NCBI GenBank assembly: GCA_027622315.1
Contig: JAQBZW010000008.1
Location: 1 to 32,705, forward strand
DNA: 32,705 bases
Source of the DNA: Chloroflexota bacterium
GTDB taxonomy: Bacteria > Chloroflexota > Dehalococcoidia > UBA2979
Reading direction: 5' to 3'
Position 1 is the stretch's first letter; each line of letters starts with the position of its first letter. The position numbers were made by a program, and so were the translations under genes. The notes beneath the pieces are model-generated. The model had not been told where the DNA came from. It did no database searches and saw only the letters and a list, made by a program, of their open reading frames with translations. This document shows, piece after piece, positions 17,258 to 32,175 of the stretch.

Positions 17258-17683
17258 ATGGCACAGGTCTACTGGAATGACGTGTCGGAGGGCCAGGAAC
17301 TCCCGGCGCTCGACGAAGAGATGTCCTCACAGCGGCTGGTGGTGTGGGCGGCCGCCTCCGGCGACTTCTACCAGATCCACTTCGACGACGACTTCGCGAA
17401 GGGGAACAACCTCCCCGACATCATCGTGCACGGCGCCCTGAAGGGGATGCTGGTCGGCCGGCTGATCGACGAGTGGATTGGCGACGAGGGCCGGATCGTG
17501 CAGTGGGGCGTGTCGTACCGCGGCATGGACCCCGCGCGCCAGAACATCAGGGTCTGGGGCAAGGTGACTAAGAAGTACGAGCAGGGCGGCGAGGGGCTCG
17601 TCGACCTCGAGGTTGGCTGTGCGCAGCCGAACGGCACCGAAACCACGCCCGGCACGGCGACGGTGATGCTGCCGAAGCGGTAG
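17258..17683 (+). CDS. MaoC-like dehydratase
   Basis: FYQIHFDDDFAKGNNLPDIIVHGALKGMLVGRLIDEWIG, a MaoC hydratase motif; paired with the upstream gene. Confidence 0.9.
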   Translation: MAQVYWNDVSEGQELPALDEEMSSQRLVVWAAASGDFYQIHFDDDFAKGNNLPDIIVHGALKGMLVGRLIDEWIGDEGRIVQWGVSYRGMDPARQNIRVWGKVTKKYEQGGEGLVDLEVGCAQPNGTETTPGTATVMLPKR

Positions 17684-17712
17684 CGCACGCGTTGTCCGGT
17701 CGGTGAAGACGC

Positions 17713-17740
17713 GAAGAGCCCGGCGCCCGCCGGGCTCTTC
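17713..17740. terminator. Strong hairpin, probable terminator of the dehydratase pair
   Basis: GAAGAGCCCGGC-gccc-GCCGGGCTCTTC, 12-bp perfect stem. Confidence 0.7.
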
Positions 17741-17848
17741 GCTATCCGCGATCACGGCGACGAGCGACGTCGCGACGGACCAGGCGACGAGGAAGATGAC
17801 CACGCGGGGGCTGATTGGGGTGTCCGCCGGTGCGGTGGACCTATCGGG

Positions 17849-29323: not shown

Positions 29324-32002
29324 TTAGCCCAGCTCGGCGAGGCTGGCCTGGAGGCCCTCAAGCCGGCCACGCGCGGTCGCGAGCCGCTCCTCTTCCTTGG
29401 CCACAACCTCCGCCGGCGCCTTCGTGCGAAACTGCTCGTTCGCCAGCTTCTTCGCCTGGCGCTCGACCTCGCCCGCGGTCTCCGCGATCTGCTTGCGCAG
29501 GCGCTCGCGCTCGCCGTCAAGGTCGAACAGGCCGGCCATCGGCAACACGACCTGGCCGACATCGAGCACCGCGGTGACGACACCCTCGCCGGGCGCCTGA
29601 TCCGGCGTGTCCACGATCTGAAGCGGGCGCGCACGCGCCAGCACCTCGATCGCCGACTGCAGCGTGCGTGCGGTGCCTGCCGCCTCGGCGCCGACGATCG
29701 TCGCTTCGACCCACCGGCCGGCGTCCACGCGCTTCTCGGCGCGGATGTTGCGCACCGCGCGCACGAAGCCCTGGATCGCGGCGAGCTGACGCTCCGCCTC
29801 GTCGTCTCGCGGCGCCGCGCCCGGCAGTGGATACGCGGCCACGATCAAGGCGGGCGCGCCGGCGGGGTCCGGACGCACTGCCGTCAAGCGTTGCCAGATC
29901 TCCTCTGTGACGAAGGGCATGAAGGGATGCAGCAGTCGGAGCGTGGCGTCGAGCACGTGCACGAGCACGGGCAGGGGCGTGCGGTCACCGGCGCGGACGC
30001 GCACCTTCGCGAGCTCGATGTACCAGTCGGCGAACTCGTCCCAGAAGAAGTCACGGGCCTGCCGCACCGCTTCGGCGAGCTCGAACTTGCCGAGCAGCGC
30101 ATCGACATCTGCGATCACCCGCTCCAGGCGCGAGCGGATCCAGCGATCCTCGATCGCCACGGAGGTTGCCGGCAGGGCGAGATCGTCGCCCGGTTCGACC
30201 ATCGTGATCGCGAAGCGCGAGGCGTTCCACAGCTTGTTCGCGAGGTTGCGTCCGGCTTCCAGGCGGTCGTCGGTCAAGCGCTGATCATTGCCGGGCGAGG
30301 TGCCGGAGACGAGCGCGAAGCGCAGCGCGTCCGTGCCGTAGCGCTCGGTCAGCTCGAGCGGGTCGACCACGTTGCCCTTCGACTTCGACATCTTCTGACC
30401 ATCGGGCGCGCGCACCAGCCCATGGAGGTAGACGTATTCGAACGGGGGCACGCCGTTCATGTTGTAGAGCGACAGCATGATCATCCGCGCAACCCAGAAG
30501 AAGATGATGTCATACCCGGTTTCCATCACCTGTGTCGGGTAGTAACGCGCGAGCGCCTCCGTCTGCTCCGGCCAGCCCAGTGTCGAGTGCGGCCACAGCC
30601 CCGACGAGAACCAGGTGTCGAGCGTGTCCTCGTCCTGCAGGAGCGCGGCGCTCCCGCACTCCGCGCAGACGGACGGATCCTCGATACCCACCGTCAGCGC
30701 TTCGCAGTCCGCGCAATACCAGACGGGGATGCGGTGGCCCCACCAGATCTGGCGACTGATGCACCAGTCGCGGATGTTCTCCATCCAGTGCAGGTAGGTC
30801 CGCTCGAAGCGCTGCGGCACGAAGGTGATGCCGCCGTCGCGTACCGCGGCGATCGCCGGGGTCGCGAGCGCGGCCGTCTTCACCCACCACTGGAGTGACA
30901 CGATCGGCTCCACGATCGTGCCCGAACGCTGGCAGTGACCGACCGGGTGCGTGTACGGATCGACCTTTGCGATCAGACCGCGTGCGTCGAGGTCCGCGAC
31001 GATGCGCTTTCGGGCCTCGAACCGCTCAAGCCCGGCGTATGGCTCGGCGTCTTCGTTGAGCGTGCCGTCGAGGTTCATGATGTTGACGATCGGCAGCGAG
31101 TGGCGCTCACCGATCTCGAAGTCGGTCGGGTCGTGTCCGGGCGTGACCTTGAGGGCGCCCGAGCCGGCCGCGATGTCCACCGCATCGTCCGTGATGATCG
31201 GAATTGGCCGGCCGTTCGTGGGGACTGCCACGCGCTTGCCCACGAAGGCGCTGTAGCGCTCGTCGTCCGGGTTGACCGCGACCGCTGTGTCCGCCGGGAT
31301 GGTCTCGGGGCGCGTGGTCGCGATCACGATGTGCTCGCCGGTCTCGTTGCCGGCGTCGTCGAGCACGGGATAGCGGATGTGCCAGAACGATCCCGGCTCG
31401 TCTTCGTACTCGACCTCGAGGTCGCTCAGCGCGGTGCGGCAGTCGATGCACCAGTTGATCAGACGCTCGCCGCGGTAGATCAGACCGTCGTCGTAGAGAC
31501 GCTTGAAGGTGGTGCGCACGGAGAGTTCGCGCGCGGCATCCATGGTGAAGGCTTCCGCGCTCCAGTCGGCGGTCGCGCCGAGGCGGCGGTGCTGCTGTGC
31601 GATGCGCGAGCGTGAGCGCCCGACGAACTGCCACACGCGCTCGAGGAACGCGTCGCGACCGATCTCGTGGCGTGTCAGCCCCTCGCGGGCGAGCTCGCGC
31701 TCGACGAGCGCGTTCACGGCAATCGCCGCGTGATCGACGCCCGGGAGCCAGAGCGTGTCGTCGCCGCGCATGCGATGCCAGCGCGTGAGCGCATCCTCGA
31801 TGGCGACGGTGAGGCCGTGGCCGAGATGCAGCTCACCGGTGAGGTTCGGCGGCGGCATGATGATCGTGAACTGCGTGCCGCCGGGGCGCGGCTTGAAATA
31901 GCCGCTTTCTTCCCACCACTCGTAGATGCGTTCCTCGACCTCAGCGGGCGTGTACGCCGGCGCCATCTCGCGCGGGTCGATGTTGGTTTCGGGGGTGGTC
32001 AT
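29324..32002 (-). CDS. valS: Valyl-tRNA synthetase
   Basis: FTIIMPPPNLTGELHLGHGLTVAIEDALTRWHRMRGDDTLWLPGVDHA...KMSKSKGNVVDPLELTERYGTDALRFAL; C-terminal coiled-coil arm. ATG at 32002 (MTTPETN). Confidence 0.97.
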   Translation of the reverse strand: MTTPETNIDPREMAPAYTPAEVEERIYEWWEESGYFKPRPGGTQFTIIMPPPNLTGELHLGHGLTVAIEDALTRWHRMRGDDTLWLPGVDHAAIAVNALVERELAREGLTRHEIGRDAFLERVWQFVGRSRSRIAQQHRRLGATADWSAEAFTMDAARELSVRTTFKRLYDDGLIYRGERLINWCIDCRTALSDLEVEYEDEPGSFWHIRYPVLDDAGNETGEHIVIATTRPETIPADTAVAVNPDDERYSAFVGKRVAVPTNGRPIPIITDDAVDIAAGSGALKVTPGHDPTDFEIGERHSLPIVNIMNLDGTLNEDAEPYAGLERFEARKRIVADLDARGLIAKVDPYTHPVGHCQRSGTIVEPIVSLQWWVKTAALATPAIAAVRDGGITFVPQRFERTYLHWMENIRDWCISRQIWWGHRIPVWYCADCEALTVGIEDPSVCAECGSAALLQDEDTLDTWFSSGLWPHSTLGWPEQTEALARYYPTQVMETGYDIIFFWVARMIMLSLYNMNGVPPFEYVYLHGLVRAPDGQKMSKSKGNVVDPLELTERYGTDALRFALVSGTSPGNDQRLTDDRLEAGRNLANKLWNASRFAITMVEPGDDLALPATSVAIEDRWIRSRLERVIADVDALLGKFELAEAVRQARDFFWDEFADWYIELAKVRVRAGDRTPLPVLVHVLDATLRLLHPFMPFVTEEIWQRLTAVRPDPAGAPALIVAAYPLPGAAPRDDEAERQLAAIQGFVRAVRNIRAEKRVDAGRWVEATIVGAEAAGTARTLQSAIEVLARARPLQIVDTPDQAPGEGVVTAVLDVGQVVLPMAGLFDLDGERERLRKQIAETAGEVERQAKKLANEQFRTKAPAEVVAKEEERLATARGRLEGLQASLAELG

Positions 32003-32042
32003 CGCGGCCTCGCAACGGGTGGGCACTCGCCGGGACACAAGA

Positions 32043-32063
32043 ACGCCCCGCGGTGCGGGGCGT
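32043..32063 (-). terminator. Intrinsic-terminator-like hairpin in the valS leader
   Basis: Minus strand ACGCCCCGC-ACC-GCGGGGCGT followed by TTCTTGTGT; 9-bp perfect stem 40 nt upstream of valS ATG. Confidence 0.7.
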
Positions 32064-32108
32064 GGGCGACAGCTCTTCAGACGCCGCGGGGGCGTCGGGG
32101 GCTGCCGC

Positions 32109-32138
32109 CTAACGTACTACGACCTCGTGGGTGGTCAC
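32109..32138 (-). CDS. Putative valS leader peptide (M)TTHEVVVR
   Basis: GTG ACC ACC CAC GAG GTC GTA GTA CGT TAG; starts at the predicted transcription start; three consecutive Val codons. Confidence 0.7.
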   Translation of the reverse strand: MTTHEVVVR

Positions 32139-32145
32139 GTCTCGA

Positions 32146-32175
32146 ATCCTAGGAGCGCCTGTTCCACAGGGTCAA
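32146..32175 (-). promoter_or_regulatory. valS promoter
   Basis: Minus strand TTGACC (32175-32170), 18-bp spacer, TAGGAT (32151-32146); the leader GTG begins 7 nt after the -10. Confidence 0.7.

Follow-up and report, generated by a model that had tools for sequence, protein, structure and literature searches.

The region upstream of valS in the window (the whole stretch of DNA analysed, 32,705 nt) is very probably a valine-responsive, ribosome-mediated transcription attenuator. We base this reading on the order of the parts, their conservation in relatives, the selection of a rare valine codon, and the co-varying stems of an upstream hairpin (hereafter P1) and of a terminator. Inspection of the minus strand identified, in 5' to 3' order before valS, a promoter, a nine-codon ORF, hairpin P1 and a terminator. 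The promoter, GTG-started ORF of nine codons, upstream hairpin and terminator proposed in an earlier note on this DNA, which already read the region as a candidate attenuator of valS, are all present:

32170-32175, minus strand: -35 hexamer TTGACC, found by pattern search; TTGAC occurs at the same position in many family leaders
32146-32151, minus strand: -10 hexamer TAGGAT, 18 nt after the -35 hexamer and found in the aligned leaders
32109-32138, minus strand: leader-peptide ORF, GTG to TAG, encoding MTTHEVVVR*; homologues of this leader occur in 31 of the 40 family genomes with a readable upstream region
32065-32109, minus strand: hairpin P1, a compound stem found by folding, with arms that co-vary across species (z -8.2, relatedness uncorrected)
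32043-32063, minus strand: intrinsic terminator stem-loop ACGCCCCGC-ACC-GCGGGGCGT, found by terminator search, with arms that co-vary (z -4.5, relatedness uncorrected)
32036-32043, minus strand: U-rich terminator tail TTCTTGTG, read from the sequence; relatives have tails of the TTTTTG and TTTTGTTG types
29324-32002, minus strand: valS, encoding a valyl-tRNA synthetase of 892 aa, matched by PRK05729 and TIGR00422

The leader ORF (GTG ACC ACC CAC GAG GTC GTA GTA CGT TAG) starts with the GTG at 32138-32136, 7 nt after TAGGAT, and its valine codons GTC GTA GTA occupy 32123-32115. The final G of the stop codon is the first base of P1, in which the outer arms GGCGGCAG (32109-32102) and CTGTCGCC (32072-32065) enclose an inner stem of GACGCC (32096-32091) with GGCGTC (32085-32080). 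The valS product scores well above the cut-offs of two NCBIfam equivalogs (PRK05729, 1109 bits against 704; TIGR00422, 1013 bits against 612). Its start codon is the ATG at 32002-32000; the start at 32003 given earlier is out of frame. In comparison with local shuffles, the promoter pattern was found once (0.0 expected) and the terminator once (0.4 expected), and the fold of 32138-32004 is modestly more stable than shuffled sequence (z -2.0).

A match to valS was identified in 98 of 99 related genomes, and 40 genomes of the window's family (Dehalococcoidia) have a readable valS upstream region and form the base of the family counts. The same layout precedes valS in 31 of these 40. The recurrence of the same order of elements across the family is the decisive test, and because of it we consider the layout to be more than chance, as the earlier note had argued from the valine run of the window leader. 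In 29 of the 31 leaders, a stretch of three codons immediately ahead of P1 includes at least two valines, and 24 have at least three consecutive valine codons (peptides include MHHNDVVVR*, MATRVHPNVVVA*, MDTKRVRAVLVAVVPVVVR*, MHTPVVVVPGGG*, MSSGERQVVVPSGG* and MRQHATVVVVVT*). Thus, the valine codons are conserved in relatives, as is the structure, and the outcome proposed as a refutation (structure persisting while the codons do not) was not found. At the promoter, family leaders have TTGTG or weaker boxes where TTGAC is not found at the -35 position, and the -10 hexamer takes the form TACCAT or TAGCAT.

The nine family genomes without a valS leader all come from three low-GC genera (g6, g8 and g14), in which the layout is lost. 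In genomes G013 and G027 (L023 and L022), P1 and the terminator are kept before valS and only one or two valine codons lie near P1; loss of sensing or altered specificity is possible in these cases. A covariance model built from the valS leaders (R1) matched 30 of 394 genomes of the class at E <= 0.001, all from the window's family. R1 identified no match in another family of the class, although a model trained on the window's family may miss distant analogues. Such a leader was also not found in any of 77 valS upstream regions from outside the family. R1 matches at G007:C24 and weak ones in L164-L169 were set aside, as they look like ordinary terminator-like sites. A weak match within the window (17674-17748, plus strand, 23.6 bits) is probably a terminator-like gene end.

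Codon choice in the leaders is distinctive. GTA accounts for only 10 of 366 valine codons (2.7%) in eleven genes of the window and for 0-3 of the 64-86 valine codons in relatives' valS genes, but for 98 of 107 (92%) in the valS leaders. It is very improbable, in our view, that the ORF is a chance occurrence and the region no more than a promoter with a constitutive, partial terminator. An ORF of nine codons is short, a genome of 70% GC has many GC-rich inverted repeats, and shuffling alone yields an expectation of 0.4 terminator-like sites. However, chance does not account for a valine run in 29 of 31 leaders from many genera, for the enrichment of GTA, for the fixed spacing from the -10 hexamer to the start codon, or for the parallel leaders with fitting codons at ilvB and leuS (see below).

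In the tabulated leaders, the distance from the -10 hexamer to the start codon is 4-9 nt (mostly 6-7 nt), leaving no space for a Shine-Dalgarno sequence between the two. Because of this spacing, the leader ORF is probably leaderless, with its start codon at the expected start of transcription. A search of the open-access literature for leaderless transcription starts in Dehalococcoidia identified none.

Both hairpins look selected, because the arms of each match better within than between species. Complementarity is greater within species for the arms of P1 (z -8.2 for valS and -9.6 for ilvB) and for the arms of the terminator (z -4.5 and -7.0, respectively) in permutation tests that are uncorrected for relatedness. 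In a MAFFT alignment of the leaders (A1), 91% of helix cells pair, compared with 41-66% for slid partners. Because the terminator stem hardly varies in this alignment, little covariation can be read from A1 by itself; base pairs altered on both sides are no more frequent than in shuffles. In the leader types seen, 3-6 nt separate the last valine codon from P1, the position of the stop codon varies from the foot of P1 to its interior in valS leaders, and P1 and the terminator do not overlap in these leaders.

The earlier note proposed that GCGGCGT (32087-32081) acts as an antiterminator by pairing with ACGCCCCGC, the left arm of the terminator. The pairing can indeed be drawn, but it is supported neither by folding with masked ribosome positions nor by co-variation. 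For the window leader, the terminator probability is 1.00 whichever 5' segment is masked, and no antiterminator was found by this folding. In most relatives the terminator wins at nearly every edge, and a few drop at single edges. When P1 segments were tested against the arms of the terminator by permutation, no reliable species-specific complementarity emerged, although near-invariant segments cannot show co-variation.

These results bear on two forms that the switch could take. In the first, stalling of the ribosome would disrupt the upstream hairpin, freeing GCGGCGT to pair with ACGCCCCGC and keep the terminator from forming. Apart from the pairing itself, this three-segment scheme draws support from ilvB leaders: as long as the right arm of the terminator has not been transcribed, the left arm is predicted to pair more once the 5' arm of P1 is masked (from a mean of 0.23 to about 0.5). 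However, the window leader keeps the corresponding pairing at 0.12-0.35 and always favours the completed terminator, complementarity between P1 and the terminator is no stronger within than between species, and a ribosome on the first valine codons would not open P1. We consider this scheme fairly unlikely.

In the second form there is no antiterminator. P1, or a parked ribosome together with P1, alters termination by sterics, pausing or coupling, and the position of the ribosome is the only input. The regulatory codons and the terminator have P1 directly between them, and P1 is retained both in low-GC ilvB leaders, whose terminator is weak, and in certain leuS leaders that lack an obvious one (e.g., L204); moreover, no alternative pairing was detected by the permutation tests. 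Set against this, a conserved antiterminator may hide in near-invariant segments to which co-variation is blind, the 5' arms of P1 and the terminator have a generic complementarity of about -11 kcal/mol in valS leaders, and the physics is speculative. A switch of this form is possible, if somewhat doubtful. The last switching step could use either a hidden, invariant antiterminator or none.

For the attenuator as a whole, we propose that transcription would begin on the GTG at 32138 or immediately beside it and that, as the spacing from the -10 hexamer suggests, the ribosome would initiate directly on the 5' end. With ample Val-tRNA, the ribosome would clear the rare GTA codons, run on to the stop codon, located at the foot of P1, and leave, and the terminator (32063-32043) would halt transcription ahead of valS. 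If charged Val-tRNA is scarce, due to low valine or low ValS, the ribosome would stall on GTC-GTA-GTA, directly 5' of P1, and RNA polymerase would be expected to read through into valS. Stalling and readthrough on valine starvation are both inferred. P1 would be the element whose state follows the position of the ribosome. Judged from standard ribosome dimensions, P1 should still be able to form while the first valine codons are in the A site, and its 5' arm should be covered in most leaders when the ribosome is at the stop codon.

The same device occurs before other genes in the family. The R1 search returned further matches before ilvB, and a promoter-adjacent leader with leucine and valine codons, followed by P1 and a terminator, is present at ilvB in all 30 family genomes parsed. 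In these leaders the UAG is fused to the P1 hairpin, after which comes the terminator, and the peptides mostly end in runs of the LLVLVLVLR*, VLVLT* or LVLR* type. The ilvB leader of the window's own genome is MACALTLPGAPLSTANLRGLDLFVLVPLT* (L184, G000:C32, upstream of 3779). An ilvB leader is also found in low-GC family genomes that lack the valS leader (among L170-L199). Most of the leuS genes examined have the same device with leucine codons, the peptide closing with L(V/A)L and then T, I, R or S (...TTLLVLI* in the window's own genome; L209, G000:C307), and in L203, L204, L206, L209 and L210 the terminal codons lie directly before P1. A 14-base core of the ilvB and leuS leaders (CTTANSTAGGCGRC) has one or two matches in each of 26 of 45 genomes. 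These matches lie at ilvB or leuS wherever checked, and the reversed control matches fewer. Tentatively, valS, ilvB and leuS could share a family of leaderless attenuators in Dehalococcoidia that need no RNA antiterminator and in which the working of the adjacent terminator depends directly on where the ribosome stands with respect to the stop-codon hairpin P1, but we regard this as rather doubtful.

The closest known systems are the ilvB and ilvB1 attenuators of Corynebacterium and Mycobacterium (ilvB-II motif), which have a short uORF with branched-chain codons that include GUA (PMC10272879, PMC11857589, PMC13236596). In C. glutamicum, the start codon of the ilvB leader is the 5' end itself or lies immediately beside it, and a three-hairpin model was described for this leader (PMC11857589). 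For ilvB1 of M. tuberculosis, the proposal is that a ribosome at the stop codon keeps the upstream hairpin from forming (PMC13236596). The valS leader shares with these attenuators a hairpin close to the stop codon and, ahead of the gene, a terminator with a U-tail. Its polarity would be that proposed for M. tuberculosis (PMC13236596), and close to the C. glutamicum model (PMC11857589). Unlike the actinobacterial cases, the valS leader is found in Chloroflexota and its regulatory codons are only those for valine. In addition, the antiterminator of ilvB and ilvB1 excludes the terminator, whereas P1 and the terminator of the Dehalococcoidia valS leaders do not overlap.

Attenuators of synthetase genes are known for pheST in gammaproteobacteria and for trpS and leuS in Streptomyces (PMC1262725). 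In these, as at valS, a leader peptide whose codons match the synthetase is followed by a terminator and then by the synthetase gene. They were predicted with antiterminator hairpins, however, and none was found for the valS leader, which also involves another synthetase and phylum. The hisS and hisZ leader peptides of Bacilli (PMC2965389) are likewise a case, from neither Proteobacteria nor Actinobacteria, of leader-peptide attenuation ahead of a synthetase gene, although with histidine codons and in Firmicutes rather than with valine codons and in Chloroflexota.

We found no report of a leader-peptide attenuator for valS, or of one in Chloroflexota, in the open-access literature, where older papers are sparse. 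Lopatovskaya et al. reportedly made a comparative study of synthetase attenuation in 2010, and a valS attenuator may have been predicted earlier, in that study for example. Leader-peptide attenuators in the open-access literature come from Proteobacteria, Actinobacteria and a few Firmicutes, and the valS case would extend them to Chloroflexota. The compact, alignable set of leaders is well suited to the question of how a ribosome acts on a terminator with no visible antiterminator.

Control of valS by a T-box, or by another riboswitch that binds tRNA or a ligand, is extremely improbable. T-box leaders of Firmicutes follow a shared logic, in that low charged tRNA turns the synthetase on via a leader terminator, but there uncharged tRNA binds the RNA directly and no peptide is involved. 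The T-box motif is frequent in the Firmicutes-dominated part of the valS upstream regions from outside the family (22 of 77), and ileS in the window's own genome has a T-box-like leader. However, the valS leader has no T-box motif and matches no Rfam family, and no more than about 75 nt of it are transcribed ahead of the terminator. An Rfam search of the window returned tRNA only, and neither the valS leader L001 nor the leaders L184 and L209 had a match.

Upstream of ileS (L227, L228 and L216), we identified a T-box-like sequence (GCGGGTGGTACCGCGGG) and a terminator. The L227 leader matches the Rfam T-box with an E value of 0.009 and a score below the gathering cut-off, and ileS looks T-box-controlled. 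One family would combine peptide sensors for valine and leucine with a T-box-like isoleucine leader in the same genome. No leader of the valS, ilvB and leuS kind was seen upstream of pheS. The upstream regions of trpE (L298, and also L294, L300, L301 and L308) include one (L298, about 3140-2900, minus strand) with a T-box-like motif (GGGTGGCACCGCG) and a terminator, followed by a Trp-rich short ORF. This ORF encodes GWGRWW, has a purine-rich, Shine-Dalgarno-like stretch and ends at the trpE start; others carry WWW. The L298 arrangement recalls the T-box plus Trp-leader of the anti-TRAP operon.
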